DNA of 34,928 nucleotides from Bacteroidales bacterium (GTDB taxonomy: Bacteria > Bacteroidota > Bacteroidia > Bacteroidales > F082). Under the pieces are notes generated by a model. It did not search any database and had not been told where the DNA came from. It saw nothing but the letters and a program-made list of their open reading frames with translations. Shown here piece by piece: positions 9,258 through 26,368 of this stretch (position 1 is its first letter; each line of letters starts with the position of its first letter). The stretch covers positions 1-34,928 of the forward strand of contig JAKSNC010000022.1 in NCBI GenBank assembly GCA_024400195.1, written 5' to 3'. A program made the translations under genes and the position numbers.

Positions 9258-9716
9258 ATGTTAGAGAAAAACTTCATTTCCAAGGCAACAGACGAAGAAT
9301 CAAGTGCAAATGTCAGTGCTTTGGACACAAACAAGACCCTGATGATAGATCAGTACACAACGGATGCGTCAGCGGAAGACCCGGAACTATTTGAGGACGC
9401 GCGTAACATATCCGACGTCTTCTCGCACTTCAAACCGAATGTCGAAGTGGGCTTCACCGACGAAGAAGGCGGCACAGTGACAGAGACACTTCAGTTCAGA
9501 GAAATCAAGGATTTCGAAGCAGACGGAGGTAAAGGCAACCTTGTCGCCAACAGCGAGTTCCTTTCAGGCCTCAAATCCAATATGGATAACGCCGCCAAGA
9601 TGAAGAAACAGTTGGAACAGAACAAGAAGCTTCGCGATATGCTGAAGAACGCAGACAGCAAGGAAGAACTCAAAGCTTATCTGCAGGAGTTGTTGAACGA
9701 ATTGGAAAACGCTTAA
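9258..9716 (+). CDS. tssB: T6SS sheath small subunit TssB (VipA-like)
   Basis: A 152-residue protein with the TssB core: a DVFSHFKPNVEVGF strand region, then a TLQFREIKDFEADG block corresponding to the LxFxxLxDFxP motif of the family, and a C-terminal amphipathic helix (about 100-152) of the kind that pairs with TssC. The N-terminal 50 residues are acidic and probably disordered. It polymerises with TssC into the contractile sheath. It starts 26 nt after tssH and ends 12 nt before tssC. Confidence 0.88.
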   Translation: MLEKNFISKATDEESSANVSALDTNKTLMIDQYTTDASAEDPELFEDARNISDVFSHFKPNVEVGFTDEEGGTVTETLQFREIKDFEADGGKGNLVANSEFLSGLKSNMDNAAKMKKQLEQNKKLRDMLKNADSKEELKAYLQELLNELENA

Positions 9717-11158: not shown

Positions 11159-11551
11159 ATGGCAGTTAATCCAGTAATGTTGAAAGTCAATGACTTAAAG
11201 GAAAGAGAAGTGATGCACGTTCACTATTCGTTTGATCAGAAAATTGACGTTGAAGGTCAGATGGCAGGCATTCCAAGGGGTGGCTTAATTACCATTAAGG
11301 TAAAGGCCCTTAACGACGGCAATGCGGATCTGCTCAATTGGATGGTAGCCCCTAACCTCGCCAAAGACGGAGCTATCGAATTCAACGAGACCAAGAGCGG
11401 CAACCTCATGAAGAAAATCGAGTTTAAGGATGCCTACTGCATCGGTTTCACCGAAGATTGGGAAGAAGGCATCGGCCATATCGAAGAGATTACACTCTCC
11501 TGCAGAGAGATAACCAACGGTTCGGTGACCTATACCAACCCATGGGCCTAA
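11159..11551 (+). CDS. hcp: Hcp tube protein (TssD), Bacteroidetes type
   Basis: A 130-residue Hcp of the Bacteroidetes family. It starts MAVNPVMLKVNDLKE, has an extended-loop segment IPRGGLITIKVKALNDG and ends in strands including KKIEFKDAYCIGFTEDW and EEITLSCREI. It stacks as hexameric rings to form the inner tube and can carry effectors. The gene is followed within 18 nt by a strong terminator hairpin, so it can be transcribed at high level with tssB-tssC. Its C-terminal strands align by eye with the longer Hcp-like protein that follows. Confidence 0.92.
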   Translation: MAVNPVMLKVNDLKEREVMHVHYSFDQKIDVEGQMAGIPRGGLITIKVKALNDGNADLLNWMVAPNLAKDGAIEFNETKSGNLMKKIEFKDAYCIGFTEDWEEGIGHIEEITLSCREITNGSVTYTNPWA

Positions 11552-11640: not shown

Positions 11641-12453
11641 ATGGCTGTTTCTGCTCAACTTCAAATTGGTAAAAGCTATGGTCCTATTTCAAATCCGCTT
11701 AATGTATATGACATTATAGAATTAAATTATACCCTTAACCGAAATTTTGATATGACGACACGTCCGAGTTCCGCAGTTTTGGGAGGACTTATAAATGTCA
11801 CCATACGTGGGAAAAAAGAGGCGACTGCGATGTTTCATGAATGGCTTAGTAAAAATGAAATTAATGCAGGGCGTATATTAATCTATGACTCCACATCAAT
11901 TGTGGGATCTCATTTTGGAACAGTGACTAAGTCTGAGGTTGTTCCTGATATCGACAAACTTGTAGATGCAGGTATTAATGCCATAGAGCGCGGCGGTAAT
12001 TCAAAAATGGAAAAAGGGGAAGCGGAAGAAGATCAGTTTGACGATATGAACAGGAAACAACTGAAAGCCTATATCAAAGACAAAAAATATGACATAAAGG
12101 TTGACACCGGCGATACTGACGATGATATAAGGAACAAGATACGTTTGAAAGAAAGCGGTAAATCTACTGATTGGTCGGATGTGACTAAAAAATCCTTGTT
12201 AGATAACGTAAAAAAAGACGGAATGAATACAGCAAAGGGAGCTTTAAAAGCCACTGCAAAATGGGTTTTGGAAACAGCTCGTAAAATAGAATTTAATAGC
12301 GCCTATTGCATCAGTGTGAAAGAGACATTTTCTAATTCCGACAAAACAAAAAGCCCGTGGCAGATGCAGATAGGACTGCTTTGTAAAGACATAGAGATTT
12401 CAGGTTTGAGTACAATGGGAATGAGTCTTTATAAATGTAAATTTGAGTTTTAA
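11641..12453 (+). CDS. Extended Hcp-like protein with an inserted domain
   Basis: The 270-residue product looks like an Hcp with an insertion. Residues 1-105 have Hcp-like strands (VYDIIELNYTLNRNFD, GGLINVTIRGKKEA), and residues about 222-270 resume the fold: RKIEFNSAYCISVKETF matches KKIEFKDAYCIGFTEDW of the neighbouring Hcp. The inserted 115 residues are charged, and part (NRKQLKAYIKDKKYDIKV...) resembles HeH/SAP-type helical mini-domains such as the Rho N-terminal helix-extended loop. It could be a specialised tube-end adaptor or a tube-borne cargo. The gene is AT-richer than tssB-tssC, lies between the hcp terminator and vgrG, and ends 12 nt before vgrG, so I infer a cargo/spike module. 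No catalytic motif is seen. Confidence 0.72.
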   Translation: MAVSAQLQIGKSYGPISNPLNVYDIIELNYTLNRNFDMTTRPSSAVLGGLINVTIRGKKEATAMFHEWLSKNEINAGRILIYDSTSIVGSHFGTVTKSEVVPDIDKLVDAGINAIERGGNSKMEKGEAEEDQFDDMNRKQLKAYIKDKKYDIKVDTGDTDDDIRNKIRLKESGKSTDWSDVTKKSLLDNVKKDGMNTAKGALKATAKWVLETARKIEFNSAYCISVKETFSNSDKTKSPWQMQIGLLCKDIEISGLSTMGMSLYKCKFEF

Positions 12454-12465
12454 TTTGTTAGTAAG

Positions 12466-15189
12466 ATGGCAGTAAGATTTAATAATGATAAAGAATTTGC
12501 AATTCAGATAAACGGAGGGCGAGTTGACCATAGTGGATCAATTTTTAGCGATTATAAGTTGATGGATTGTTCGCTTGAGTTAGGTCTTTTGAAACCCGCC
12601 GAATTACGCTTTACCATACGTCGTGAAGACGCTGTTAACAAAACTGAAGGCCAAGTAAAATTAAGCCCGATAACAGACTCTATCCTCGGGAAGAATGTGG
12701 TTTGTTCGTGGACGACAGTTTTAGACAACAACGTGGAAGAACAACACGCGATGCTGTTTGAAGGAATCGCCGTTGAAGCAAACGCCGACAAACTCCATAT
12801 AACGGTGGTGGCGTGTTCTAAAGACATCCTCCTCAATGATGCTCCGTGCTGTGAATCTTATACAGACAAGAGCGTCTCGGAGGTCATAAAAGAAAATTTA
12901 GGTAAACATTCAGTCAATAATAATATAGTTGGCGGTTCTCTTAAAAAAGAAGAATACATAGTGCGATATAACGAAACTTCGTATCAGTTCATTACCCGTC
13001 TCGCCCGACAATATGGACTATGGGTGTATTGGAGTTTAAAATATAAAAGAATGGTTGTGAGCGATAATATTATGCCTTTTGAAGACAGCCCGGCCACTTC
13101 GTTGTTAGTAAAAAAAGGGTATCAAAACTTTACATACAAGCTGAAGACGATGTATCCGTATCTTCCTTGTGCTGTTTATGATTATCTTAAGGATAATATT
13201 ATATGTAACAAAGGAGGTTCCGTAGCTGCGGCTGGTCTGGTTGAAAGTGTCGATAATGATTCTAAAACATTTTTCATTGGCAATGGTCAATACAAACCGA
13301 TAAACTATTACGACTATTATGTAAAACCTAATAAGAATGATGCCGAGTGGCTTAAAAATATGGTGGAGAGTCATGAAAACAGCCTTAAGTCACAGTATGT
13401 GGAATGCACCGGTACGACAAATTTTTCGAATTTGCAGATAGGGTCTGTTATTGCAATAATTGAAGACGGTTCTTGTCCTGCCGAACTTGTTGTGATAGGT
13501 ATGAGGTACGAGTGGGATTCTTCCGGCAATTTCATCGGTAAGTTCACGGCCATACCAAAGGATCAGAAAAAACCTCCCTATTTCGACCCGGGGGCGTATC
13601 CGAAGTCGGGAGTCCAGCGTGCCGTCGTCGTCGATAACAAGGACGACCAAGGTTTGGGGCGTGTCAAAGTGCAGTTTCTGTGGCAGGCAACGATGGATTG
13701 TGCCGATAATGCGGATATAAATAAGCTTGAAAATAAAGATAAAAAAACTATTTCCCCATGGATACGCGTGGCCCAGCCTTACGCCGGCAAAGGCGTGGGA
13801 TGCTATATAATACCTGAGATCGGCGACGAAGTCTTAATAGGCTTCGAGCACGACAACGTGGAAAAGCCATACGTCATCGGCGTACTTTACCACGGAGGAG
13901 CTGCAAAGGAAAATTATGTCGCACCCGATGAAAAATGGACGAAACTGCCTTCTGCTGATAAAAAGCCAAATGTAGTGAAGGCGCTCAGGACGCGGAGCGG
14001 ACAGACAATAGAAATACACGACGACTGTGACGAAGCTAATGTGCAAGATAAAAATGGCTTCGTCAGAATATACACCAACCCGTTAGCACAAAATAACGGC
14101 GGTGGTGGTGCAGGTGGTAATAATCCTCCTGCAAATAATCCGACTCCGAGGGAATACGATATAGTGCTTTCAAAAGACGAATGGCGCAAAGCAAACGACA
14201 TTGACAAAGCACTAACCGCCGCCGATGCTGAAAAAGTAAAAATCGGTGTCGCCTCCGACGGCTCAATCGTCATAAGCTGCGCCGAAAACCTCGTCCTTAA
14301 GGCGAAAAACGTAAAGATAATCGCAGACGAGACTTTCGACATGTCGGTTGCGGGAAAGACGGGCGGCAAGTGGAACGACAACCAAAACTGGAAAGACACC
14401 GAATTTGGTACCAAGGTGTCAATCTCGAAGGAGAAGATGGAAATTTTAGCAGTCGGTACAGAAAAAGAAAAAGAAAAAAAAGGTGTGAAAATGTATGTGC
14501 CGGCGGAACAAGGCAAGGCGGCGCAAACATTCGGTTTAACTGTAGGCAACTCTTCTGTTATTGTTAACGGGACAAAAGATAAGGAGGAAATTGGTCTCGT
14601 GGCGAATGAAGGTTCTTATATTTCTGTTATTGCAGATAAAGATAAGAATGGAATTGATCTTCAGGCGAATAAAGATAATTTTATTGCTGTTAACGGCAAG
14701 GACAATAAAATTGATGTCAAGGCGAAAGAGTCTCTTGTTACTATTGATGGAAAGAACGGTGCCGAGAAAATTGATGTCAAGGCGAAAGGGTCTTTTGTTA
14801 CTGTTGATGGAAAGAACGGTGCCGAGAAAATTGATGTCAAGGCGAAAGAGTCTCTTGTTACTGTTGATGGAAAGAACGGTGCCGAGAAGATTGATGTCAA
14901 GGCGAAAGGGTCTGGTGTTACTGTTGACGGTAATGGAAGTGCCGTGAAAATTGATACTGATGGCAGTATTAAGCTTACAGGCAAAAAGAATTTTACAGTT
15001 AGAGGTGTAGAAAATGGAGAAATCAATGCTTCCAAAAGTCTCAATATTGATGGTGGCAATGACATTAAAATGAAAGGCAATAATGCAGAGATATGTTCAA
15101 ATACAAAAGTTAAACTGGATGGCACAAATGTTGAATTGAGTGGTAAAGCAGGCCTTTTGTTCAAGGGGAGGGAAGACCATGGTTTATAA
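12466..15189 (+). CDS. vgrG: VgrG spike protein (TssI) with C-terminal repeats
   Basis: A 907-residue spike protein. Residues about 1-370 resemble the phage gpD/gp27-like base. Residues about 375-480 form the gp5-type OB domain (KSGVQRAVVVDNKDD, GLGRVKVQFLW, SPWIRVAQPYAGKGVG, PEIGDEVLIGFEHDN). A Gly/Asn/Pro linker sits near residues 542-565. The C-terminal third is a long beta-helix-like needle with 20-residue repeats built on KIDVKAK...VTVDGKNGAE. It trimerises at the tube tip and is followed by a PAAR-like cap gene. No enzymatic C-terminal domain is seen, so it is probably structural. The first part is AT-rich, like the preceding gene, which suggests a mobile cargo/spike cassette. Confidence 0.92.
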   Translation: MAVRFNNDKEFAIQINGGRVDHSGSIFSDYKLMDCSLELGLLKPAELRFTIRREDAVNKTEGQVKLSPITDSILGKNVVCSWTTVLDNNVEEQHAMLFEGIAVEANADKLHITVVACSKDILLNDAPCCESYTDKSVSEVIKENLGKHSVNNNIVGGSLKKEEYIVRYNETSYQFITRLARQYGLWVYWSLKYKRMVVSDNIMPFEDSPATSLLVKKGYQNFTYKLKTMYPYLPCAVYDYLKDNIICNKGGSVAAAGLVESVDNDSKTFFIGNGQYKPINYYDYYVKPNKNDAEWLKNMVESHENSLKSQYVECTGTTNFSNLQIGSVIAIIEDGSCPAELVVIGMRYEWDSSGNFIGKFTAIPKDQKKPPYFDPGAYPKSGVQRAVVVDNKDDQGLGRVKVQFLWQATMDCADNADINKLENKDKKTISPWIRVAQPYAGKGVGCYIIPEIGDEVLIGFEHDNVEKPYVIGVLYHGGAAKENYVAPDEKWTKLPSADKKPNVVKALRTRSGQTIEIHDDCDEANVQDKNGFVRIYTNPLAQNNGGGGAGGNNPPANNPTPREYDIVLSKDEWRKANDIDKALTAADAEKVKIGVASDGSIVISCAENLVLKAKNVKIIADETFDMSVAGKTGGKWNDNQNWKDTEFGTKVSISKEKMEILAVGTEKEKEKKGVKMYVPAEQGKAAQTFGLTVGNSSVIVNGTKDKEEIGLVANEGSYISVIADKDKNGIDLQANKDNFIAVNGKDNKIDVKAKESLVTIDGKNGAEKIDVKAKGSFVTVDGKNGAEKIDVKAKESLVTVDGKNGAEKIDVKAKGSGVTVDGNGSAVKIDTDGSIKLTGKKNFTVRGVENGEINASKSLNIDGGNDIKMKGNNAEICSNTKVKLDGTNVELSGKAGLLFKGREDHGL
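14701..14940 (+). repeat. Four tandem 60-bp repeats in vgrG
   Basis: Four consecutive 60-nt units align base for base with few changes, each encoding 20 residues of the VgrG needle (residues 746-825). More diverged units precede them from about 14570. Near-identity at DNA level suggests recent duplication or copy-number variation that would change needle length in steps of 20 residues. Confidence 0.9.
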
Positions 15190-15226: not shown

Positions 15227-15589
15227 ATGCAGGACAAGGATTATATTTGTGCGGGGCAGAAGATAAAGTGCAGTATGGCTGCCGGGCCGTTCACGCTTAT
15301 GGTCATCGGGACACAGATGTATAAGAACAAGCCCATAGCCAATATCGGCGACAACAAGTTGGGCGTCAATATAATACCTCCGATATGCGTGTGCAAGTCG
15401 CCGGCGAATCCCGTCGTCGCGTCGATGATAGCTTCGACGATGGGAGCCGTCACACAGGCTCCGAGCGCACCACTGATAACCGCCCCGTGGGTCCCCGGCA
15501 ACCCTATGATTATAATCAGGAATATGCCGATACTGACCAAGAACAGCAAACTTATCTGCGCCTACGGCGGAATAATATCGATACAGTAA
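15227..15589 (+). CDS. PAAR-like (DUF4280) spike tip protein
   Basis: A 120-residue protein with the DUF4280/PAAR-like layout: VCAGxxxxCSxA-like start (ICAGQKIKCSMAAG), a glycine-rich middle ANIGDNKLGVNI, Cys pair near PPICVCKSPANP, and the end LICAYGGIISI. Such proteins cap the VgrG spike. There is no C-terminal toxin extension, so this is a bare tip. It follows vgrG by 37 nt and precedes the ubiquitin-like gene by 21 nt. Confidence 0.85.
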   Translation: MQDKDYICAGQKIKCSMAAGPFTLMVIGTQMYKNKPIANIGDNKLGVNIIPPICVCKSPANPVVASMIASTMGAVTQAPSAPLITAPWVPGNPMIIIRNMPILTKNSKLICAYGGIISIQ

Positions 15590-15610: not shown

Positions 15611-15925
15611 ATGGATGATTTCTTCTTATTTTTAAAATACAGACACAAGACGATAAAGTTCAGGGTCGCGGATCCCACAATCACCCTCGACGTCCTGATG
15701 ACGAATCTCAGAAACGCCGTGGGCAAAGACGGCAACCGCATCTTCGACCTGCCTGACATCTTAGACGGCACACCGACGGACTACTATTTCGCCAAGACAG
15801 ATGAAGAAACGGGCAAAAACATCGTCCTTCAGCCTAAAATAGGCAAGACGCTGCTTCACCTCTCCGATTATAACGTGCATAACGGCGATACCGTGTCAGT
15901 CATCGCCGACCCGATAGCCGGATAA
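15611..15925 (+). CDS. Ubiquitin-like beta-grasp modifier
   Basis: A 104-residue protein that reads as a beta-grasp fold: strand 1 FFLFLKYR, strand 2 TIKFRVAD, helix LDVLMTNLRNAV, then a longer insert and the closing block LSDYNVHNGDTVSVIADPIAG. That block resembles the end of ubiquitin and YukD-like proteins (L-x-D-Y-x-V-x-x-GDT). The chain stops exactly at a Gly, so a C-terminal carboxyl for adenylation would be available without proteolysis. The residue before it is Ala rather than Gly. The E2-like gene begins 5 nt later and an E1-like gene lies in the same apparent operon, so a conjugation role is likely. A YukD-like non-conjugated role is the main alternative. Confidence 0.78.
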   Translation: MDDFFLFLKYRHKTIKFRVADPTITLDVLMTNLRNAVGKDGNRIFDLPDILDGTPTDYYFAKTDEETGKNIVLQPKIGKTLLHLSDYNVHNGDTVSVIADPIAG

Positions 15926-15930
15926 GTTTG

Positions 15931-16533
15931 ATGCCGATGTCGAACACGCCCAAAATAGAGGATTTCGAAGGCATTGCGGTGAAAGGCCGTAACGCCCGCC
16001 TTCTTGTCGAATGGCAGATGATGTCGAAGCAGTTTGAAGGCGACGGCGAAGTGTCGTTCTCGGTCGCGAAGCGTAATTTCATGGGACTGCCCGAAGCTTA
16101 TCTCGTTCGATATGACGTCAGGTCGTTTTGCGGCACGTTGCCTAAAGACGGAGACGGATTGGAAAAACCCGAAGTCGCCGACAGTTTTCTGATGGAGATA
16201 AATCTTCCGAATAATTATCCGAGCGCGGACGGTTTTCCGGAGTTCAAGTTCAGGACGAGTGACGACAAAGGCGTGAATATCGCTCACCCGTGGCATCCTA
16301 ACATAAGATACCACGGCGATTTTGCCGGACGCGTGTGTCTGAGCGCAGCAGAATGCGGCACCTTCACCGACCTCGCGTGGTACGTGGAGCGTGTGAGGGC
16401 TTATCTCAAATATGAAAAATACAACGCCAAAAACACGCCGCCTTTTCCGGAAGACGTCGTCGTGGCGCAGTGGGTCGAACAACAGGCCGAACCAAATGGA
16501 TGGATTGAGAATTTTAGGAAAAATATAAAATGA
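15931..16533 (+). CDS. E2 ubiquitin-conjugating-like enzyme
   Basis: The ATG at 15931 gives 200 residues. The UBC fold is visible: an N-terminal helix (RLLVEWQMMSKQF), a strand block ending SFLMEINLPNNYPSADGFPEFKFRT (the usual PxxYPxxPPxxxF region), HPN at 122-124, candidate catalytic Cys136 in GRVCLS, then Trp in DLAWYVERVRAYL and an asparagine/proline C-terminal region (NAKNTPPFPED). In typical E2s Cys lies about 8 residues after HPN; here it is 12, so there is a small insertion. It would accept the modifier from the E1 as a thioester. The stop overlaps the next start (ATGA), indicating translational coupling. A TTG at 15928 is an alternative start. Confidence 0.85.
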   Translation: MPMSNTPKIEDFEGIAVKGRNARLLVEWQMMSKQFEGDGEVSFSVAKRNFMGLPEAYLVRYDVRSFCGTLPKDGDGLEKPEVADSFLMEINLPNNYPSADGFPEFKFRTSDDKGVNIAHPWHPNIRYHGDFAGRVCLSAAECGTFTDLAWYVERVRAYLKYEKYNAKNTPPFPEDVVVAQWVEQQAEPNGWIENFRKNIK

Positions 16534-18026
16534 GACTTATCAGGATTTTGTTTTTGATGACGGCATTTTTCCCGATTGCCGTTTTTGGTCAGAGCACCAC
16601 GAATATGCCGGTTGAAAACGGGAAACCATGCGTCAGGACTGTCCGTGTGGAGGGCTTCAACCACACCTGCGCCCCACATCATCTTACGATAACGGCCAAT
16701 TTCGACCAAAATACCGAAACACTCACCTTGGGTTTAAAAGTCCCGAAAGACAACACTAAGAAAGATTGTGACTATATCTGGATTCCGGGAGAGGCGCATT
16801 ATTTTACCGATTTGGTGACGTTTTTCAAGTCAAAAGGCTGCAAATCGGCGAAGATAGCGACGAAATTTAAGAGGCAGATACGCAGAAACCGCCTTTATGG
16901 AAACCACGTGTATCAGTTTAACGCATCGGTGGTGTGCGAAAACAGCCTTTTCAATGAGGTCTTCAAGATAAACGACAACAGCTTGGATACGACGATCGAA
17001 ATATTCAAGGAGTTTATCGCCGCCGACGGAAAATCGGAGATGCAGCTAACATTCAAAGTGAAAGACGAAGCCGACACCGTGACTGTGACGCTGAAGAACA
17101 TCATTCCCGTGAAGGAGAAAGGAAAGAAGAAGGGCGAATTTATCCCGTTTGTGGAATATATGGCCAACGATATTGTAATCAACATCGCCATCGAACGCGA
17201 CAAATGTCTTCTAAGCAAGAAAGTCATAAAAGACCTGACAACGCTACTTGATTATCTCGGGAAACAGAAGTCCGACCTCGAAAAAATGAGGTTCGACGTC
17301 TCCAACTTCGAGGAGAGTTCAAAGACTTTTGACAAAACGAAGGAGGTTATGACGGCTAAGATTGACGAATTCGGGTTAGCACGATATATGGATTCCGGCT
17401 GTCCGACAGTCGATTCCATCATCGATTCCATTTTCGCCGTAAAGTTTATGCTTCCGACTTACCGTATGCCCGACGCCCGCGAGATTTGCGAATACATCAG
17501 TGCCGACATCAAGTTTGTTGACAGCCTGAATCAGGTGTTGTCGGCGGTTGTGATGGATTTGAGCAAGATGCGTTCCGGTGTCAAGACGGCAGAAGACAAC
17601 GATAATTTCTATCAGACAAAAGGTATAGCACTTGAGAATGTCAAAGGTCTCAATGTGAAAATGTATCTTAATTCTCCGTGTCCTGAAATGTGTCAGAAGG
17701 CGGAGGAACTGCAGCATCTGATAAACACCCTCAGATGGATGAAGTATGCGCCAGAAGATGGTCAGCAGGCAAAAGCGGAGTCGGTAAAGACTGTTGACGA
17801 GAACGAGATAAAGACGGTCGTGGAAAATATGAATACCTTGTATAATAAGTGGTCTGTCGCCTCGGAAGAAAACAAACCGCGACTCAAGGTCGAGTTTGAC
17901 AAGATTGTGATGGAAATGCAGGAAAAGATAAGGATTGTACCCGATGCTGACAGAAACGGCAAACTGAAAGTGATAATCAACGAATTTAATGTGGCCGTCG
18001 AATCATTGTCCGCACTGATGCGATAA
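16530..18026 (+). CDS. Secreted periplasmic protein of unknown function in the T6SS/ubiquitin-like cluster
   Basis: I do not recognise this 498-residue protein. It has a Sec signal peptide with likely cleavage after VFG (no lipobox). The mature part begins with beta-rich sequence to about residue 230, including repeated TVTVTLKNI-like strands, followed by a mainly helical second half. About ten scattered Cys residues could form disulfides, consistent with the periplasm. No membrane helix follows the signal. It overlaps the E2-like gene by 4 nt and precedes a one-helix membrane protein, so it is probably a periplasmic part of the same machine. It may fill the role of a T6SS envelope component, but no sequence motif proves this. 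Confidence 0.8.
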   Translation: MRLIRILFLMTAFFPIAVFGQSTTNMPVENGKPCVRTVRVEGFNHTCAPHHLTITANFDQNTETLTLGLKVPKDNTKKDCDYIWIPGEAHYFTDLVTFFKSKGCKSAKIATKFKRQIRRNRLYGNHVYQFNASVVCENSLFNEVFKINDNSLDTTIEIFKEFIAADGKSEMQLTFKVKDEADTVTVTLKNIIPVKEKGKKKGEFIPFVEYMANDIVINIAIERDKCLLSKKVIKDLTTLLDYLGKQKSDLEKMRFDVSNFEESSKTFDKTKEVMTAKIDEFGLARYMDSGCPTVDSIIDSIFAVKFMLPTYRMPDAREICEYISADIKFVDSLNQVLSAVVMDLSKMRSGVKTAEDNDNFYQTKGIALENVKGLNVKMYLNSPCPEMCQKAEELQHLINTLRWMKYAPEDGQQAKAESVKTVDENEIKTVVENMNTLYNKWSVASEENKPRLKVEFDKIVMEMQEKIRIVPDADRNGKLKVIINEFNVAVESLSALMR

Positions 18027-18039
18027 AATAAAGGTGAGA

Positions 18040-18840
18040 ATGAAATTATCTGTCAAAATATCATTATGGTTCATCGTGGCGATGATGTCGGTGACATTGT
18101 TTCATACGCCGGCTTCATCGCAGGTTTATGTCGATTATGTCGAATTTGACGACGGGACATCGCCGGCGAGCATAGCAAGGCAACTCGACGAAGTACGCTC
18201 CGAGATTGAACTTCTCGACAAAAGTATCGAAAACTTCAACGATGTCGAAAACCTGCGTTACGAAATACAGAAATATAAGGGCGCGATAACCTATTACGAC
18301 CCGTATGTGAATAAGAACGACGAGACGTATCAGGCCTACGAAGACTGCAACAAGGCGTATTTCAACCTTCTCCAAAAGGTTGACGAACTGACGGCTCTTG
18401 AGCAAAAGCAGAAAACATATCGTAAGACTTCTGCACTGATAGCGTCATCATTGCAGAAGATGGAGGCTCTTGAGAAGTCGGCGAAAGACTTTTTTGATAA
18501 AAAGAATGCCGATTCACTCGCGGTCGTAAAGAAACAGGCGGAGACGTTAGTTCAGGTAGTCAGCACTATGGTTGCCGAAAATAACGAGGCTTTGTCGGAT
18601 TATCCCGATATAACCGACGACAAGGCGAAACTTGAGGCTAAAAAGGCTATGATAGACTCTATGGAAATCAAGAAAAGGGATATTGGAGACCTGATTTTCA
18701 AGGGTGTAGTCGTTTTCGGAATCCTTTTCGGCCTCGTCAATATGCTTATTGCGAAGAGAGAGGCTGCCAAAGCAATGAAGGCCAGCGGAATAGCTCTTCT
18801 CGAAAAAGAATCAAAAAACAAAGATATACCGACGATATGA
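18040..18840 (+). CDS. Coiled-coil protein with one C-terminal membrane helix
   Basis: The ATG at 18040 gives 266 residues; a GTG at 18034 is possible. An N-terminal signal peptide (cleavage near PASSQ) is followed by long helical, charged sequence (about 35-215) with coiled-coil character, then one hydrophobic helix near residues 222-242 (LIFKGVVVFGILFGLVNML) and a basic tail IAKREAAKAMKAS. The positive-inside rule puts the coiled coil in the periplasm and the last 25 residues in the cytoplasm. Family unknown. It overlaps the VWA/RING gene by 4 nt (ATGA). A structural role in a trans-envelope complex is plausible. Confidence 0.8.
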   Translation: MKLSVKISLWFIVAMMSVTLFHTPASSQVYVDYVEFDDGTSPASIARQLDEVRSEIELLDKSIENFNDVENLRYEIQKYKGAITYYDPYVNKNDETYQAYEDCNKAYFNLLQKVDELTALEQKQKTYRKTSALIASSLQKMEALEKSAKDFFDKKNADSLAVVKKQAETLVQVVSTMVAENNEALSDYPDITDDKAKLEAKKAMIDSMEIKKRDIGDLIFKGVVVFGILFGLVNMLIAKREAAKAMKASGIALLEKESKNKDIPTI

Positions 18841-21290
18841 AGAATATTTTCAAGAAAATGATGAGATGCGTTGCCGTCGCCTGGCTGATGTTCGTGTCGG
18901 GTGTCGTGTACGGACAGGAGCCGATAACTGTGGATATAGTCTTTGACAGTATTCCTATCGTCTTCGACGAGGAGATGGATACGATGCGTGCCAATTTCAA
19001 ATTCAAGTGGAATGACGACATCATCAATGTGGGCGATCTGTCTCAATATAACATCGAGTTTTCTGAGACGGATGTTCATGTGGGCTCGGGAAAGGTTTCG
19101 GATAATATATGGCTTGAAGGCTGTAACAGCTCTCTTTCAAGTAAGTTGTCGATAGTGGTTCTTGCCGACAAGAGCGTTTCGATAAGTAACGAGGCTATGG
19201 AGAAGCAAAGACGCATCCTACGTTATCTGTTCAACCTCTGCGAAGACGTCAACTTGAGATTCTATGTTTCGGCTATGGACGATATGGTCACGATGACGAA
19301 GGAGATGACGACGATGGACGAACTCAACAGGTGGATTGTGTCGAATCTCTCTGTGCAATCCGAAGTTGACAAGTATCTATATGAGGCAATGGCATCTAAA
19401 ATAGAGGAGATTTCAGGGCTTTCTCACGAATGCTATCCGAGTGTGCCGCACAACATTTCGCTTCTCGATGATTCCGACAAGATTTTTGTTGTGCTGACAG
19501 ACGGCAAAGTAAAGAATGCCGACAGTACTTTCATCGGTGGAAAGGATTTCTTTAAAATGAAGAATTTCTTTGTGAGTCGGTTCAATTCTCGGATAAAGAA
19601 CGGCGAACTTACAATTTTACCCACGTATTTCATATATATAGGTGATGAGGAGCACGTTGACGAAGCCGAGCAGGAACTCCGCAGCATCAACAATATATCG
19701 GGTGACGATGATTTTCGTTGTGAATATTTTGTCAAAAATTACGACTTTGCCTCTCTTGAACGTCTGGCGAAGGACATGTTGAGTGGGCTTCACACGTCAT
19801 ATAGTATGCTTTTCAGAAACGCCCCCGGCAAAGTGTTTGGTGGGCAGGAACTCACACTCAGTATCTCTGTTAAAAACAATGCCGGTACAGCTGAAGGTTC
19901 GACACGTTATGTGATAGGCTCCAGGATGAAGCCGTTTGTAGTCGTTCCAGACTTGCGTCCATGGCAGACTGCATTATACGGATGGATAGGCGGGGCAATA
20001 GCGGCATTTATCCTATTCCTTTTGTTGTATTTCATCTTACAGTTTGTTTGTCCACGCATCAAATACAGACGTTTCCTCAAACGTCACGTCAAATGTTACG
20101 AGCACGACATCCCCGATGTCTCGGAGCAGTGCTGCTACTGCAAACAGAAGTTCTATCCGGGCGACAAAATAGTCACAAAATGCAAGCATACTGTGCATTG
20201 GGAGTGCTGGGAGGAAAACCGCGACCGCTGTCCGGAATACGGCAACGGGTGCGAAGACGGTTTTTATTACTACAACCGTGACAACCTGCGTGATTCGCGA
20301 AACACGACTCCCAAACTTAAATGGATGATGCTCGGTATGATTTCTGCCTTTATCGTATGGTGTCTGCATCAGGCTATACCCAACGAGGAGGTCGCATCTA
20401 ATTTCTTTGAGTGGTTTGTGAGGATGGTGAGCTTTGGCTTCGGCAGTAAGCAGTCTTCCGATACGGTTTACACATTGTTGAATATGAGAATCAAACTTCA
20501 GGAGATTGTGCTTATCGGTATGCAGTTCGGCTTCATCGTTACGTTGGTCTTCAGATATTATTTGTATATCGACCAACGCAATACCCGCGGCGTACTGAAA
20601 AATCTCCTACTTTCAATATTTAACATGTATATATGCGGAATCGCGGCTTTGATAGGTTCGGTGTTCTTTATCCTTATGGGCAAGGATTACAATTGCTTTT
20701 GGACGGACTTTTTGCCATGGCTCCTTTTCGGCTTTGCCTTGATGTGGCTGATAGTGCCTAAGACCGATTCATGTCTGAGAACCGCCATTTTGGCTTCTGT
20801 CTTATCCGTCATCGTGGGATATATATGCCTCTATATGATACCGTTTACGGGAAACCTCGGACTATTTTCCTATCTCAACAGCGTCGTGTCGATGATGATT
20901 ATCGGAGCCGGATTCGGTATCGGCGTGGCCGTTAAACCGCGTTTCTCAAACAAATTCTTCCTCCACGTCGGAGAATCGGTGAAGGGCTTGGATATAGCCA
21001 TATACAAATGGATGATGTCGTCAGGCGGCTTCAGAAGGGTTTCGATAGGACGCGACTTCCACTGTATGATTGATATGCGCTGGGACGACAGCGACGGCAT
21101 CGACGGCAAACAAGTCGAACTATATCTTAAAAACGACCTTCCTTACTGTCGTGTCCTTGCTCCGGGTGTGAAAATAGGGTCTGATGAAATTACGACAATA
21201 CGGGATGTGGATGAAGAGGTTCGTTTGCACAACAAAATGGTCATAGGGATAGGTAAGACGACATTCTCATATTTTGAAAAAGACAGATGA
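18837..21290 (+). CDS. VWA - membrane - RING-like - polytopic membrane protein with FHA-like tail
   Basis: The 817-residue product has an unusual domain order. Signal peptide (cleavage near VYG); VWA domain at about 100-310 with MIDAS D111-K-S113-V-S115 and TDG at 221-223; first membrane helix at about 382-404 followed by basic residues, so the VWA faces the periplasm. A cytoplasmic RING-H2-like cluster follows: C432-x2-C435-x13-C449-x-H451-x2-H454-x2-C457-x7-C465-x6-C472. Six more helices lie between about 497 and 700, with positive loops placing the C terminus in the cytoplasm. The last 100 residues (VSIGRDFHC ... MVIGIGKTTFSYFE) look like a degenerate FHA fold. Overlaps of 4 nt with both neighbours, including the E1-like gene, tie it to the conjugation set. 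It is a candidate membrane E3 and secretion anchor; the last Cys spacing differs from standard RINGs. Confidence 0.78.
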   Translation: MKNIFKKMMRCVAVAWLMFVSGVVYGQEPITVDIVFDSIPIVFDEEMDTMRANFKFKWNDDIINVGDLSQYNIEFSETDVHVGSGKVSDNIWLEGCNSSLSSKLSIVVLADKSVSISNEAMEKQRRILRYLFNLCEDVNLRFYVSAMDDMVTMTKEMTTMDELNRWIVSNLSVQSEVDKYLYEAMASKIEEISGLSHECYPSVPHNISLLDDSDKIFVVLTDGKVKNADSTFIGGKDFFKMKNFFVSRFNSRIKNGELTILPTYFIYIGDEEHVDEAEQELRSINNISGDDDFRCEYFVKNYDFASLERLAKDMLSGLHTSYSMLFRNAPGKVFGGQELTLSISVKNNAGTAEGSTRYVIGSRMKPFVVVPDLRPWQTALYGWIGGAIAAFILFLLLYFILQFVCPRIKYRRFLKRHVKCYEHDIPDVSEQCCYCKQKFYPGDKIVTKCKHTVHWECWEENRDRCPEYGNGCEDGFYYYNRDNLRDSRNTTPKLKWMMLGMISAFIVWCLHQAIPNEEVASNFFEWFVRMVSFGFGSKQSSDTVYTLLNMRIKLQEIVLIGMQFGFIVTLVFRYYLYIDQRNTRGVLKNLLLSIFNMYICGIAALIGSVFFILMGKDYNCFWTDFLPWLLFGFALMWLIVPKTDSCLRTAILASVLSVIVGYICLYMIPFTGNLGLFSYLNSVVSMMIIGAGFGIGVAVKPRFSNKFFLHVGESVKGLDIAIYKWMMSSGGFRRVSIGRDFHCMIDMRWDDSDGIDGKQVELYLKNDLPYCRVLAPGVKIGSDEITTIRDVDEEVRLHNKMVIGIGKTTFSYFEKDR

Positions 21291-22447
21291 AACAGGGAAA
21301 TAACGAAATAGATGTCTTCGGCGAACTGCCGTGGTTTGACGCCGACGTGGTGCGTAAGGCACGCGTCATCGTTGCCGGTGCTGGCGCACTCGGTAACGAG
21401 GTGCTGAAAAACCTCGCCCTTTTCGGCATCGGACACATCTTCATCGTTGACCCCGACATCGTTGAAAAAGGCAACCTCTCGCGTTCTATACTCTTCCGGC
21501 AGTCCGATGCCGAAAAAGGTGTGCCGAAAGTGGAAGCCGCCGCAAAGATGATACGCGAAATCAATCCCGACGTCGATGTCGAATATGTCAGAGGCCGCCT
21601 CGCCTCCGATGTAGGCCTCTCGGTCTATCGCAACTCCGATGTCGCCGTGGGCTGCCTCGACAACAGACTCGCACGCCTACAACTTAACAGAATATGTATG
21701 AGGGCCGGCATTCCGTGGGTCGATGGCGGCATCGAGGATATGACCGGTTCCGTCAAAGTCTTCAAACCCGGACTGAACTGCTACGAGTGTCAGCTCTCCG
21801 ACGCCGACAGAAATCTCATCACGGCAAGACTATCGTGCTCCGACATAGCAAAGAGAAATATCGCCTCAGGACACGTCCCGACAACGCCCGTCATCGCCTC
21901 GGTGATAGGTGCCGTACAAGCACAGGAAGCTCTCAAAATCATTCATAAAAACAAGAATTTCGACGATTTGTGCGGCAAAATATTTTATTATGACGGATTG
22001 TCCGTTGAAACCGGCGTCTTCGAGATGCAGTCATTCAGCGACGAATGCCCGTCACACGAAAAATGGGACGACATCATCATAATAAAAGAATTGAAAACCA
22101 ATGCTACCGTGAAACACACTCTCGAAATCCTGAAAAACAAACTCCAAACTTCTTCAGTCGAAATAAACCTGAGAAATGATAAGTTCGTCGATAAAGTCAT
22201 ATCACGCGAAAACGGAAAAATATTCACGCCTATGCTCCCTGAATCGAAAATCCCAGACTATATTGACGACATTCCGGAATTGCGCATTCAACCTCAGAAC
22301 AGCCTCAACCAAAACGTTTTTGAAAACATCAACGACGACTTCCCATATAAAGAACTGACACTTAAAGAAATAGGCATTCCATACAACGACATTATACAGG
22401 TAACGACCGACAAAGGCCCCGCATACGTCGCTATTGATAACAACTAA
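21287..22447 (+). CDS. E1/ThiF-like modifier-activating enzyme
   Basis: A 386-residue ThiF/E1-fold adenylating enzyme. The nucleotide loop GAGALG lies at 31-36, Asp55 and Asp57 in VDPD, Asn63 and Arg66 in KGNLSR, Lys81, and Asp125 in CLDN, which together make the ATP-binding set of E1 and MoeB/ThiF enzymes. Cys184 (RLSCSD) is the best candidate catalytic Cys, followed by the conserved TTPVIASVIGAVQAQEALK helix. A zinc site may use C165-x2-C168 with C254-x2-H257, His replacing the usual last Cys. About 130 extra residues follow the ThiF core, ending in a beta-rich segment. It should activate the 104-residue beta-grasp protein. MoeB/ThiF roles in cofactor synthesis are less likely given the adjacent E2. 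Confidence 0.87.
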   Translation: MKQGNNEIDVFGELPWFDADVVRKARVIVAGAGALGNEVLKNLALFGIGHIFIVDPDIVEKGNLSRSILFRQSDAEKGVPKVEAAAKMIREINPDVDVEYVRGRLASDVGLSVYRNSDVAVGCLDNRLARLQLNRICMRAGIPWVDGGIEDMTGSVKVFKPGLNCYECQLSDADRNLITARLSCSDIAKRNIASGHVPTTPVIASVIGAVQAQEALKIIHKNKNFDDLCGKIFYYDGLSVETGVFEMQSFSDECPSHEKWDDIIIIKELKTNATVKHTLEILKNKLQTSSVEINLRNDKFVDKVISRENGKIFTPMLPESKIPDYIDDIPELRIQPQNSLNQNVFENINDDFPYKELTLKEIGIPYNDIIQVTTDKGPAYVAIDNN

Positions 22448-22457
22448 CACAAAGACA

Positions 22458-23237
22458 ATGCTTCTCAACGATGAAAATATAGTAAAGACAGGAGACATAA
22501 AAGCGGAACTGCTGATTTCCGTTCTCTGGAATAAAATAAACGAATGGACGGTTTCGTATAATGGCACGTTCAACAGAAATTATGCCGAAGACATTGTCGA
22601 AGCCGACATCAACACGGGCGAGATTACTTTGTCCAGAAACGGCATCTACGACGTCCTGCCGGAACTTCTATTCTTCAGAACCAACGACTTGAACTCTTTG
22701 GACAGCCGCGATTTTAAAGAACAGGACGAAAAACTGCACCTCAAGAGAAACCATATAAAGGACTTTTTCAAACCTTTCGATTCGATACTTTTTAATAAAT
22801 CGATACAACTTGAAAAGTTACTCAATGAATATGAAGCCGAAAATCTGAGGTCGCTTCTGCTGCGCTATTTCGACTACGACATCACGGAAGAAAGAAACAT
22901 CTATGTCAGAAAATTTGCACCGATGATGCTTTTCGTCGCAAGGCTGAGAGGCAATTTCCGCAAACTGTCGGCCATACTCTCTGCCGTGACCGACTGCTTT
23001 GTGACATACACCATTAGAAAACGGCACATCCGCTTCGTTGTCATCAAGGAAAACCTTAACGCTGCTGAATATAAACAGTTTACATCCGAGTTGAAACCGC
23101 TTTTCGATATGGTGGAGGAAAAATTTATACCTTTTGACGCGCGATTCGACTACAGGGTGAAGAATTACGTTCCCGATTTCGCATTTCGCGGTGAGTTTCC
23201 TCTGCTTTTGGATTACAATACACATTTTAAGAAATAA
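22458..23237 (+). CDS. tssG: T6SS baseplate wedge protein TssG
   Basis: The ATG at 22458 gives 259 residues. The assignment rests on weak family-like sequence (SLLLRYFDYDITEERNIYVRKFAP and a charged C-terminal half with RGNFRKLSAILSAVTDC) plus position beside tssK, tssE and tssF, since every T6SS baseplate needs a TssG. It is shorter than typical TssG (about 300-350). It begins 10 nt after the E1-like stop, so the conjugation and baseplate genes are in one transcription unit. A TTG at 22434 inside the E1-like gene is a less likely start. Confidence 0.65.
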   Translation: MLLNDENIVKTGDIKAELLISVLWNKINEWTVSYNGTFNRNYAEDIVEADINTGEITLSRNGIYDVLPELLFFRTNDLNSLDSRDFKEQDEKLHLKRNHIKDFFKPFDSILFNKSIQLEKLLNEYEAENLRSLLLRYFDYDITEERNIYVRKFAPMMLFVARLRGNFRKLSAILSAVTDCFVTYTIRKRHIRFVVIKENLNAAEYKQFTSELKPLFDMVEEKFIPFDARFDYRVKNYVPDFAFRGEFPLLLDYNTHFKK

Positions 23238-23250
23238 AAATAAATTGATT

Positions 23251-24153
23251 ATGAACAATTTAGATGAAAGGATAAATTGGCATTCAGGGATGGAGATAAC
23301 GCCGGAGACGTTCGTCGTCCACGACAATATCTCGTATGTCTATCGAACTATGCTTCGACGGATTGTATCAACATCGTTATTTGGCATCATTCCCGGATTT
23401 TGCTTCAATATAAAGGCCTCCGTATCAGGCAAAAGCCTCGTTATCAGTCAAATTGACTGCGACGTGATGTTGAAGACGGGAACTGTTGTCAGACTTCATA
23501 ATGACGCTGCCGTGGAATATGCCATACCTGAAACCGATTCCGAACAACTATACTTCATAGCAGTCCCATCTGAAATGCAGGAAACGGAATGGGATGAGAC
23601 GGAGATGCTCGTCAATGCCTGTCATTATAGTCTTGGTACTTTGCCAAAATATTCCGAGGGTTTCCCACTTCTGAAAATCAGGCGCAGCAACGGGCAATGG
23701 GCTGTTGACGACGACTATATCGCGCCGTTTGCAGCCATATACGATTCTGACAAACTGAAGAATTTTCTTGCGGAAGCGAAAAAACTTGTCGAGATAATAG
23801 TCGCACACCAGTCAATGGAAAAGATAACGGGCCGATACGTCATTGATGTTTTGGCAGACCGTCTCGACTCAATAACCGATTCCGACGCGAGTAAGAGTTT
23901 TGGGGATGTGTCGCAGCTGATAATGAATGCTATAAAGCATTTTATTATCGAAAATGCTACAGCAAAAGGCAAATTCGAGTTTTACGATATGGAGCCGTTT
24001 TACACGTCCTTCGTAAAAACACTGAATGAGGCCATCAACAAACTTGATGAATTGGCAATAGTCATTCCGGAACCCGAACCAGAGCCCGAACCAGAGCCCG
24101 AACCAGAGCCCGAACCAGAGCCCGAACCAGAAGAATATTTCCCGATAATATAA
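23251..24153 (+). CDS. tssK: T6SS baseplate protein TssK, short form with a Pro-Glu tail
   Basis: The ATG at 23251 gives 300 residues. The N-terminal INWHSGMEITPETF matches the W-x-x-GM-x-x-x-P-x-x-F signature of TssK, and the following beta-rich domain (about 30-170) and helical part (about 170-275) fit the shell and neck of TssK. Proteobacterial TssK is about 445 residues; here the C-terminal head that docks onto the membrane complex appears to be missing, replaced by about 20 residues of alternating Pro-Glu. An upstream in-frame start at 23191 lies in tssG and is rejected. TssK connects baseplate to membrane complex, so the missing head bears on how this system attaches. Confidence 0.78.
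   Translation: MNNLDERINWHSGMEITPETFVVHDNISYVYRTMLRRIVSTSLFGIIPGFCFNIKASVSGKSLVISQIDCDVMLKTGTVVRLHNDAAVEYAIPETDSEQLYFIAVPSEMQETEWDETEMLVNACHYSLGTLPKYSEGFPLLKIRRSNGQWAVDDDYIAPFAAIYDSDKLKNFLAEAKKLVEIIVAHQSMEKITGRYVIDVLADRLDSITDSDASKSFGDVSQLIMNAIKHFIIENATAKGKFEFYDMEPFYTSFVKTLNEAINKLDELAIVIPEPEPEPEPEPEPEPEPEPEPEEYFPII
24070..24132 (+). repeat. 12-bp tandem repeats encoding a Pro-Glu tail
   Basis: Five copies of GAACCAGAGCCC-type units encode alternating Pro and Glu near the end of TssK. Such short repeats change length easily by slippage. The encoded segment is rigid and acidic and could act as a spacer or binding stretch. Confidence 0.9.
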
Positions 24154-24170: not shown

Positions 24171-24641
24171 ATGATTCTGACAAGACCTTTAAAAATGACA
24201 TTTCCAATAGCGAGGATGAATGACAGCGTTTTGGTTAGGTCGATTGACACATTCATCAATATGATAGTCGCTTCGGAAAGAGGCTGCTGCAAAGCCGACC
24301 CTGATTTCGGCTTCGCCTTTGAAGATTTTCATTACGCAGCTTTCAGCACGGAACGCGCCGAATTTTTCAAGACACTCGCCACAGATACCAACAATAAGAC
24401 ACTTGCCTCCATAACCGACCCGATGTACGATAGGACGATTGTCGGTTCGAGTAAGAATACAGGTAATTTTGCGGAAACATTGAAGGCTATAATCGAGCGT
24501 TATGAAAAACGACTTACGGATGTCTGTGTCACAATAGACTATATGATTTCCGACAAGGTGCTGTGTATCGAAATTGATGCAGTCATCAACGATGAAACGA
24601 GGAATCCCTACAACCACCGTATATATTCACAAATCTGGTAA
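24171..24641 (+). CDS. tssE: T6SS baseplate protein TssE (gp25-like)
   Basis: A 156-residue gp25/TssE-family protein. The signature is near the N terminus: SIDTFINMIVASERGCCKADPDFGFAF corresponds in order to the helix, the ER of the family GER motif, and the P-x-FG turn. The C terminus has the expected beta strands (DVCVTIDYMI, VLCIEIDAVIND). It starts sheath assembly at the baseplate. It lies 17 nt after tssK and 11 nt before tssF. Confidence 0.88.
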   Translation: MILTRPLKMTFPIARMNDSVLVRSIDTFINMIVASERGCCKADPDFGFAFEDFHYAAFSTERAEFFKTLATDTNNKTLASITDPMYDRTIVGSSKNTGNFAETLKAIIERYEKRLTDVCVTIDYMISDKVLCIEIDAVINDETRNPYNHRIYSQIW

Positions 24642-24652: not shown

Positions 24653-26368
24653 ATGAGGAACGAGGAATATAAAAACATACAGAAGCAGACTCAGGACCTT
24701 TTGGAAAAGATTCTCGAACTATGGAAGAAACAGGGCAAATGGGACGGCGACGACAGAAGCATGCCTTACTACGGACTCGATAAAGACCCTATTTTGTCGA
24801 TTCTGATAACGGCCTTCGTGTTTCAAATAAACCAACTCGAAGATAATATAAAGGCGTTTCGCGAAGGACTTTTTGACGAATTTGAAGACCTCGCCGTGCC
24901 TTTTGAACTTGTCAAACCCGTTCCGGCCATCGCAATGCTCGCCACATCAAAAAGAAAGGGCGACAACGACACCATCTTTACCGATCAAGATATGTCTTTT
25001 GAAATCGAAAAGAAAATGATGATGTCTTCCGAAAGATATGCTTTTGCACCGCTTTTCAATACGCGCCTCGTCAATATAACCCCAGTAGGCGTAAAGCAGT
25101 TATCGGAGACGAAATGGCTCGTCAATTTCGACAACGATGAGGCCGAACTCGACTTGGGCTGCATCGCATTCTTCTTCGACAAACTGAACTTCACCGACCT
25201 GAAAATTACCATTGACGGCAAAGAGATACCATTGGTAAAACCATGGGAATACGACCGATTCCCGCTCAATCCGTGGATAACGGCAAAAAACATTGTTTGC
25301 AACAAGGCACTCGTTTACGGCAGCAACGAACAGTGGTTCGACCTGTGGGTGAATCACGAACTCAACTATTACCTCATCGCACCCGACTTTAAAAGAAAAA
25401 TAAAGGATAAAAACTTCAGCCTCACTTTCGACTTCGCGGGCTTGGACGGCAGTCAGACACTTAACGCAGAAAACATCATTCTCAACGCCTTCCCTATCGT
25501 CAACGTGACGCGAAAAGACTTCTTCCTGTCGTTAAACTCGCCGGTTGTCAAAATATCGGAAGAAAACCTTGACGATTCCGAAGATGAAGAAGATCAGCAT
25601 AATTCGTTCTTTATGAACCTCGTCTTCGATGAAGAAAAAAACGAATACGACGACTTAGACAAATTCACTCTGCGACATTTCGGCTGCGAGCGTTTCGACA
25701 TGGCCGAACTCATCAACACCGCAAACACCTTGGTGCGCAGATACGGCACCGATTTCTACGCATTCCAGTCAATATCGCAGTTCCAAAGCAGCGAACGCAT
25801 GCGCCGACTTTCATACGTCGTGAAAGACATAACGGATATACTCAAGCAGTACGGCATCCCAAAATCAGGAATCTACGCCATACTGAAGAATAAAAACTAC
25901 CTCTCGCCTGACGAGGCAAAACTGACGATTTGCTCACTCTTTACCAACGGAGTCGCGGCAAACGACATCGACATTAACGCCTCCATCATCTCTTCCGATA
26001 ATTTAGACAATAAAAAAACACGGCTTCTGACTATGACATCGGGCGGAAAAGACGAAATAATGAACCACGACGAGAAAAGAATGCTCGGCAGATATTATCT
26101 GCAGACAAACGACAGAATCGTAACGCGCTCTGACTTAAACCTCTTCTGCCGCAGAATGCTCATTCAGGAAGGCATTAACGCCAAATATATTACAAACATC
26201 GACGTTCCACACACGACCAGCGACGACAAAGCACAAAAAGTCTTTATCGCTGTTGACAGGGATTTCGTCTCCGATATTGACTTCGCTCATCTCGCTTCCA
26301 AAATGCAGAAAATGATAGACGTAAGAAGCGCAGGCTTAATGCCGGTGGAAATTGTTTTTTCTGAATAA
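24653..26368 (+). CDS. tssF: T6SS baseplate wedge protein TssF
   Basis: A 571-residue TssF-like protein. The N terminus has a helical start and the block FEDLAVPFELVKPVPAIAML, matching the conserved TssF region in which Pro-Ala-x-Ala/Met-Leu follows the first helices; the middle is beta-rich, and the C terminus ends in a small alpha/beta domain. Length is near the 590 typical of the family. TssF with TssG forms the wedge around the hub. It is the last gene of the locus; no obvious terminator follows, and the helicase gene with its own -7 box begins 68 nt later. Confidence 0.85.
   Translation: MRNEEYKNIQKQTQDLLEKILELWKKQGKWDGDDRSMPYYGLDKDPILSILITAFVFQINQLEDNIKAFREGLFDEFEDLAVPFELVKPVPAIAMLATSKRKGDNDTIFTDQDMSFEIEKKMMMSSERYAFAPLFNTRLVNITPVGVKQLSETKWLVNFDNDEAELDLGCIAFFFDKLNFTDLKITIDGKEIPLVKPWEYDRFPLNPWITAKNIVCNKALVYGSNEQWFDLWVNHELNYYLIAPDFKRKIKDKNFSLTFDFAGLDGSQTLNAENIILNAFPIVNVTRKDFFLSLNSPVVKISEENLDDSEDEEDQHNSFFMNLVFDEEKNEYDDLDKFTLRHFGCERFDMAELINTANTLVRRYGTDFYAFQSISQFQSSERMRRLSYVVKDITDILKQYGIPKSGIYAILKNKNYLSPDEAKLTICSLFTNGVAANDIDINASIISSDNLDNKKTRLLTMTSGGKDEIMNHDEKRMLGRYYLQTNDRIVTRSDLNLFCRRMLIQEGINAKYITNIDVPHTTSDDKAQKVFIAVDRDFVSDIDFAHLASKMQKMIDVRSAGLMPVEIVFSE

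Follow-up and report, generated by a model that had tools for sequence, protein, structure and literature searches.

The DNA analyzed here (the window) comprises 34,928 nucleotides, positions 1 to 34,928 of contig JAKSNC010000022.1 from a Bacteroidales bacterium (assembly GCA_024400195.1), and is contig 15 of a source genome of 1.84 Mb that is 89.7% complete. It carries the operon of a type VI secretion system (T6SS) that includes genes for a ubiquitin-like protein (Ubl), an E2, an E1 and a membrane RING protein. These genes, joined in most relatives by one for a predicted JAMM isopeptidase, are termed the cassette. As found in the window, the cassette and the two genes enclosed in it are the following:

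15611..15925, + strand: Ubl modifier of 104 aa, ending in ..IAG (AlphaFold2 beta-grasp; ubiquitin and EccD5 Ubl matches)
15931..16533, + strand: E2 (UBC-like) with HPN and catalytic Cys136 (UQ_con; alternative TTG start at 15928)
16530..18026, + strand: protein 'Q', predicted secreted or periplasmic, 498 aa (N-terminal hydrophobic signal only; no Pfam match at E<0.1)
18034..18840, + strand: predicted periplasmic coiled-coil protein with a C-terminal membrane helix (from hydropathy; weakly TssO-like)
18837..21290, + strand: membrane RING protein (signal, vWA region, helix at about 378-410, RING at 432-472, further membrane helices, C-terminal FHA-like region)
20130..20252, + strand: RING finger of that protein (Cys432, Cys435, Cys449, His451, His454, Cys457, Cys465, Cys472)
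21287..22447, + strand: E1 with a ThiF domain (3e-52), a CxxC/CxxH presumed zinc site and candidate catalytic Cys184

The order on the + strand is ClpV, TssB, TssC, two Hcp proteins, VgrG, a DUF4280/PAAR-like tip, the cassette, and finally the TssG-, TssK-, TssE- and TssF-like proteins. From PAAR through E1, the intergenic distances are 21, 5, -4, 7, -4 and -4 nt. A preliminary description of this DNA had placed a Ubl/E2/E1 set within a T6SS operon, and this is what we found: the operon is tight, with VgrG and PAAR on one side and TssG, TssK, TssE and TssF on the other. The three parts named there are real and were correctly located, but the RING protein had been overlooked as a further member.

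Recurrence of the Cassette

Scanning GTDB genomes with an alignment of E2 sequences returned 89 relatives, and 80 loci were kept; a single-E2 query gave no match. The relatives include Bacteroidales, Prevotella, Muribaculaceae, Barnesiella, Xylanibacter muris and others, many of them from ruminants. Across the 80 loci we counted E2 in 80, Ubl in 78, the JAMM family in 75, RING in 75, E1 in 74, TssG in 70, TssK in 66, PAAR in 60 and VgrG in 57. Ubl, E2, RING and E1 occurred together in 72 of the 80, nearly always in the same order, and the JAMM family was present as well in 70. At least one T6SS gene was found in 77/80 loci, so that the neighborhood search called for in the preliminary description did reveal the set recurring beside T6SS genes. 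The loci without any are L103 (6.7 kb), L119 (full set) and L134. Because the loci span at most ~10 kb on either side of E2, missing TssE, TssF, TssB or TssC genes do not amount to an absence.

Among 100 relatives, the window genome included, E2 homologues were present in 9, with 8 among the 60 genomes of its genus. E1 orthologues were found at E<1e-90 in 6 of the 393 genomes of the order, its own included (the next match being at 2e-27), and E2 was detected by profile in 3 of 395 genomes of the phylum, again counting its own. No E2 match was obtained in plasmids, phages or IMG/VR, and we rejected phage or plasmid cargo on this ground; chance open reading frames (ORFs) were rejected because the genes are conserved across the relatives' loci.

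One genome (G003, contig 37, 20000-32999; L208:3-12038) has a second, tandem T6SS adjoining its cassette system, with Ubl (ending in VAG), O and RING genes of its own. Within this second locus there was no E1, E2 or JAMM, suggesting that each machine has a modifier and putative ligase of its own, whereas E1 and E2 can serve more than one.

Modifier, E2 and E1

The AlphaFold2 model of the Ubl shows a beta-grasp fold (pLDDT 88.9) that matches ubiquitin and the EccD5 Ubl, in agreement with the fold that structure prediction had been expected to reveal. Four alignments (A1-A4) of 12 sequences, namely the window and 11 relatives, several of which are closely related, were used to assess conservation. 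The IAG-stop C-terminus is found in 11/12 aligned Ubl sequences, and Gly directly precedes the stop in 76 of 82 Ubl ORFs. Since the Ubl ends in IAG at the stop codon, no processing would be needed. Other Ubl-domain proteins without a terminal Gly, mostly longer than the modifier, are encoded near the Ubl gene at L070:8719-9642, L099:5050-5769, L109:8082-8465 and L097:8656-9471.

Structure modeling covered the Ubl alone, and the E2 is called UBC-like from sequence profiles. All 12 aligned E2 sequences matched UQ_con at E up to 1 (best 2.9e-6), and the solved structure nearest to the E2 profile was UBE2K (2.2e-7). HPN and the Cys are invariant in the 12 sequences and occur in 80/80 loci, 74 by a strict pattern and six with variants around HPN and Cys; the earlier assignment of an E2-like protein with HPN and Cys136 was thus confirmed.

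The solved structures nearest to the E1 are UBA7 (4e-31) and UBA1 (4e-29). Cys184 is invariant in 12/12 sequences, as are the presumed zinc ligands Cys165, Cys168, Cys254 and His257, and we infer that Cys184 may be the catalytic residue. The protein ends with an extra domain of ~130 aa that is conserved; a search for the E2-binding UFD domain of E1s gave it neither a Pfam nor a convincing PDB match (hhalign probability against the Ubl, 5).

Membrane RING Protein

The protein at 18837..21290 is the putative ligase of the cassette. Seven of its RING ligands are invariant across 12 sequences and the eighth, Cys465, is nearly so. Every one of the 12 matched zf-RING_2 at E up to 1 (best 3.5e-4; window's own 0.0011). 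The strict RING pattern was met in 73/75 relatives; L104 retains every ligand, one residue out of register, and L134 the first part only.

VWA was detected in 2/12 and FHA in 2/12 RING protein sequences. A distant homologue in L193 matched VWA_2 (1.6e-7) and FHA (3.2e-8), its RING cysteines being partly lost. Such homologues lie at L193:12847-15228 and L194:12825-15173, and a DPIT-containing stretch of the former looks U-box-like.

Hydropathy indicates a signal, one membrane helix ahead of the RING and several behind it. An excess of Lys and Arg was observed on the RING side of the membrane helix in 73/74 RING proteins and on the JAMM-domain side in 71/74 JAMM proteins. By the positive-inside rule, the flank of a membrane helix that is rich in Lys and Arg is the cytosolic one, so both domains should be cytosolic. 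This is also the side on which Ubl, E1 and E2 should reside.

Predicted JAMM Isopeptidase and Periplasmic Partners

In most relatives, the gene directly ahead of the RING gene encodes a membrane-anchored JAMM protein, a predicted isopeptidase that would complete the tagging cycle. Pfam JAB matched the JAMM proteins of L193 (2.8e-8) and L049 (1.7e-8), and the solved structure nearest to the JAMM profile was RPN11 (1.6e-10). The JAMM residues are invariant in 13/13 sequences, and the motif is present in 74/75, the remaining one being cut off by a contig end. JAMM was found in 14/15 cassette genomes as opposed to 0/10 T6SS genomes without the cassette. The window genome (89.7% complete) gave no JAMM by Pfam JAB or by the JAMM profile, nor was the motif found in the window. 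No JAMM was found at L069, nor at L090, L093 and L108, which are short or hold nothing beyond the E2 side.

A homologue of 'Q' occupies the same place in 15/80 loci. The coiled-coil protein at 18034..18840 matched TssO at a Pfam E of 0.0022, under the cut-off, with an hhalign probability of 19; the TssO sequence set had taken in TssQ, so that its control comparison carries no meaning. Comparing the RING, JAMM, Q and X2 profiles with those of TssN, TssP, TssQ and TssR, built from 2 to 6 sequences, gave no recognizable match, and searches with the TssP, TssR and TssQ profiles likewise found none.

T6SS Genes of the Window and the Absence of TssN

Genes for the sheath, tube, spike and baseplate of a T6SS of the Bacteroidota type are present in the window:

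6748..9231, + strand: ClpV/TssH, sheath-recycling ATPase (AAA_2 7e-58, ClpB_D2-small)
9258..9716, + strand: TssB sheath, VipA-like (T6SS_VipA E=0.0051, under cut-off; placed ahead of TssC)
9729..11084, + strand: TssC sheath (PF17541 1.3e-105)
11159..11551, + strand: TssD/Hcp tube (PF17642 2.6e-28)
11641..12453, + strand: second, extended Hcp, 270 aa (PF17642 1.8e-18; two matched stretches, best at residues 1-85)
12466..15189, + strand: VgrG spike (Phage_base_V 1e-20, Phage_GPD 9e-15)
15227..15589, + strand: PAAR-like (DUF4280) spike tip (DUF4280 4e-22)
22434..23237, start uncertain, + strand: TssG-like baseplate protein (no Pfam match at E<0.1; homologue in 70/80 loci)
23191..24153, start uncertain, + strand: TssK (T6SS_VasE 2e-4, under cut-off; homologue in 66/80 loci)
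24171..24641, + strand: TssE (GPW_gp25 1.7e-6)
24653..26368, + strand: TssF-like (no Pfam match; relatives have a homologue following TssE)

The two Pfam-matched parts of the extended Hcp-like protein are separated by a charged stretch, and a long Glu-Pro repeat lies close to the C-terminal end of the TssK-like protein. Upstream of the T6SS, at 2428-6391, a glycyl radical enzyme and a radical SAM protein are encoded, which are probably unrelated to it.

Among the 393 genomes of the order, TssC was found in 18, comprising five with the cassette, seven with TssN and six with neither (some at contig ends). When 26 genomes were tested, seven had TssN, 13 the cassette E2, none both and six neither; TssN (PF17555) was accordingly absent from all 13 cassette genomes (G000 included) and present in seven of the 13 others. 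The TssC tree, built from 63 matches (45 rows once short and near-identical ones were removed) by a quick method with SH-aLRT support only, midpoint rooting and long branches flagged, placed the TssN systems in one group of 12 rows (eight with TssN, four with neither; support 100), with the cassette systems outside. G316 is the sole cassette-free row among the cassette systems, and G105 adjoins the TssN group. The cassette/TssN label changes twice on this tree, as compared to 11.4 times in shuffles. The cassette T6SS is a Bacteroidales subtype outside the TssC clade of TssN-bearing systems. At L166:4320-5429, between PAAR and TssG of the cassette-free T6SS in G316, lies an M23 peptidase that has a Tsi6-like neighbor.

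The accessible parts of PMC10781749 describe tssN as nearly ubiquitous in T6SSiii, and its product as having a ubiquitin-like domain and resembling EccD. As characterized there, T6SSiii, with its TssNQOPR membrane complex, shares TssB, TssC, TssD, TssE, TssF, TssG, TssK, VgrG and PAAR with the cassette systems; the latter, however, lack TssN, have no TssP or TssR recognizable by profile, and possess Ubl, E1, E2, RING and usually JAMM instead.

Extracellular Contractile Injection Systems and Signaling Genes

Three cassette genomes without T6SS evidence (G512, G606 and G075) all encode CIS_tube, which was not found in G000, G444 or G365. G512 and G606 belong to the same class and another order; their set lies near PAAR and genes of the type found in extracellular contractile injection systems (eCIS), the T6SS comparison for these two covering the fetched flanks only. 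At L193, Pfam identified PAAR_motif and eCIS_core near the set, and G512 has sheath, tube, baseplate and CIS_tube genes within ~30 kb on the cassette contig. G075 (that is, L134) gave no TssC match, and its CIS_tube is on another contig. The cassette may also serve eCIS genomes, three out of three being no more than suggestive.

On contig 685 of G075 (L049 and L176), the set stands beside SrfB (1e-213), a Virul_Fac/SrfC-like gene (2e-139), a subtilase-like ORF and a second JAB protein; this genome also has further candidate Ubl-like ORFs. At L193 an nSTAND gene adjoins the set. Upstream of the full Ubl/E2/JAMM/RING/E1 set of L119, whose 20 kb contain no T6SS genes, two FHA-domain proteins are encoded (L119:487-2058 and 9028-9600), one with a trypsin-like domain. 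Pfam also detected kinases near the cassette systems of G029, G018 and G444, and a PP2C phosphatase in G029. Taken with the vWA and FHA-like parts of the RING protein, these kinases, phosphatase and FHA proteins suggest an upstream phospho-signal.

A Possible Tagging Switch at the Inner Membrane

We regard it as fairly probable that the cassette is a Ubl switch of contractile injection systems, bound to the membrane and usually reversible, whose target is the machine itself at the inner membrane. What the computations show are the parts with their active-site residues, the trends in topology, how the set recurs and in what gene order, where it falls on the TssC tree and that TssN is absent; conjugation itself, its substrate, the switch function and sensing are inferred. 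The modifier would act on the machine or on its cargo. The E1 would activate the C-terminal Gly of the Ubl and the E2 receive it as a thioester; the RING protein, in the inner membrane, would then direct it to a lysine at the cytosolic face, on some T6SS component that is most likely part of the baseplate or the membrane complex. The periplasmic vWA region might sense the state of the envelope and the cytosolic FHA-like tail phospho-threonine, and such sensing by the ligase would, through tagging, switch T6SS assembly or firing. In most relatives, the membrane-anchored JAMM isopeptidase would strip the tag, whereas the window operon has no JAMM. Given that the active sites face one (cytosolic) side of the membrane, and that ligase and eraser are both membrane parts, the simplest interpretation is that tagging takes place close to the base of the machine. 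All this suggests that the harpoon with which these bacteria attack their neighbors is assembled or fired via ubiquitin-like tagging.

Several observations weigh against such a switch. The Pfam scores of the window E2 and of the window RING are under the curated cut-offs, and the best RING match of the RING family among solved structures is weak (RNF165, 0.011). The last pair of RING ligands is spaced C-x6-C, the norm being C-x2-C. As for sensing, Pfam detected neither VWA nor FHA in the window's own RING protein; a MIDAS DxSxS motif is present there, yet in only 14/75 relatives, and kinases were found in only three of the eight cassette genomes whose further flanks were examined. Reversal is not universal, as JAMM is missing from the window genome and from locus L069, and the T6SS-type JAMM protein of L045 has no Pfam JAB match, though the motif is present. 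The set is also patchy, judging from the E2 counts in the genus (8/60) and the phylum (3/395). Finally, the split between TssN and the cassette amounts to one boundary on the TssC tree, and so to about one independent event, while G316 has a related T6SS in which neither was found, as was the case for six of the 26 genomes.

Alternative Explanations

In a more far-reaching reading, the cassette would be the membrane complex of a distinct class of contractile injection systems, in which RING and JAMM, along with the predicted periplasmic partners (two or three in number), stand in for TssN, TssO, TssP, TssQ and TssR; the Ubl, covalently attached to the baseplate, would dock it, as the ubiquitin-like domain of TssN does elsewhere, and the same module would operate in T6SS and eCIS. 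We find this conceivable but doubtful. That the Ubl tags cargo, marking effectors for loading or holding them inactive until firing, appears unlikely. Some relatives do have variable genes between PAAR and Ubl, and two of those tested (in L133 and L087) encode Tle1-like phospholipases; Ubl-domain proteins without a terminal Gly also occur near that spot in some loci. However, these intervening genes vary by locus while the cassette is constant, the window operon has no separate gene there, and the putative ligase, whose gene adjoins those of the baseplate, is itself a membrane protein. Quite improbable, too, is a broader Ubl system for envelope stress or quality control, with many membrane-protein targets and co-transcribed with injection systems by chance. 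Such a role would suit the vWA/FHA sensor layout and the one genome whose cassette adjoins SrfB/SrfC-like genes instead of structural genes of an injection system; it fits poorly with the linkage to T6SS genes in 77/80 loci and with a CIS tube protein being encoded in all three cassette genomes without T6SS evidence.

Bacterial sets of Ubl, E1, E2 and JAB are known from anti-phage systems, which raises the question of a Bil-like or CBASS-like defense module merely housed in the T6SS operon. The match of the E1 to PADLOC E1-E2 models (3e-14) and the nSTAND gene at L193 point that way, but neither Ubl, E2 nor RING protein had a PADLOC match at E up to 1, the position inside the T6SS operon is fixed in most of the 80 loci, and the membrane topology is at odds with it. 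We deem this explanation very unlikely, and a defense island was rejected as the main interpretation on the PADLOC results and the fixed place. ThiF-type E1s also act in sulfur transfer, and one other ThiF match was found elsewhere in the window's genome; the Ubl might thus be a sulfur carrier, or else a non-covalent adaptor that is never conjugated. Against this, no part in sulfur carriage is known for RING, JAMM or the canonical active site of the E2, and Cys184 lies at what we take to be the position of the catalytic Cys in ubiquitin-type E1s, making such a role highly improbable.

Relation to Known Systems

A 2011 survey by Burroughs et al. reportedly listed prokaryotic neighborhoods with RING, E1, E2, JAB and a YukD-like Ubl side by side, without describing them as part of a T6SS, and priority for parts of the operon may lie there. 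Among the matches listed in our literature search, whose scope left out bioRxiv and most subscription papers, no title or abstract start joined Ubl conjugation to T6SS. The accessible parts of PMC1779556, PMC3482391, PMC11354881 and PMC10781749 make no such link either.

Going by the portions available of PMC5654768 and PMC6043591, Caldiarchaeum subterraneum likewise has a complete prokaryotic pathway, with Ub, E1, E2, a small RING protein and Rpn11 as the JAMM enzyme; that system is archaeal, whereas the RING and JAMM of the cassette are anchored in the membrane and associated with a contractile injection system. Bub and CBASS Cap2 share E1/E2-driven Ubl conjugation, and the E1 profile matches BubCD (1e-10) as well as the PADLOC models. 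Unlike them, the cassette has separate E1 and E2 genes, a membrane RING, usually JAMM, and a place in T6SS operons.

Bil is an anti-phage module and is not known to be lodged in T6SS operons. BilABCD, an operon of Ubl, E2, JAB and E1, shares with the cassette the separate Ubl, E1, E2 and JAMM genes in a bacterial operon. According to the accessible parts of PMC11354881, the Bil E2 carries a CEHH motif and no RING is described; the cassette E2, by contrast, has HPN before the Cys, with no His after it in the window E2, which is thus not of the BilB type, and the cassette includes a membrane RING. The JAB peptidase of Bil operons was not found in the window or its genome and is present in relatives.

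Significance

To our knowledge, bacterial Ubl conjugation is mainly known from anti-phage defense. What we describe is a nearly full eukaryote-like set that includes a membrane RING dedicated to it, in most cases together with a membrane isopeptidase, and that is linked to a contractile weapon across Bacteroidales, a good number of them gut and rumen bacteria. Relatives with strain names, Xylanibacter muris PMUR and Barnesiella sp. An22, may make the cassette testable. If one module does serve T6SS and eCIS, Ubl conjugation would be a general control of injection machines in Bacteroidota. We know of no form of secretion-system control by Ubl tagging; should the cassette act on the machine, it would represent a previously unrecognized one, could explain the function of T6SS loci without TssN, and would offer a compact system for asking what ubiquitin-like tagging did before eukaryotes.

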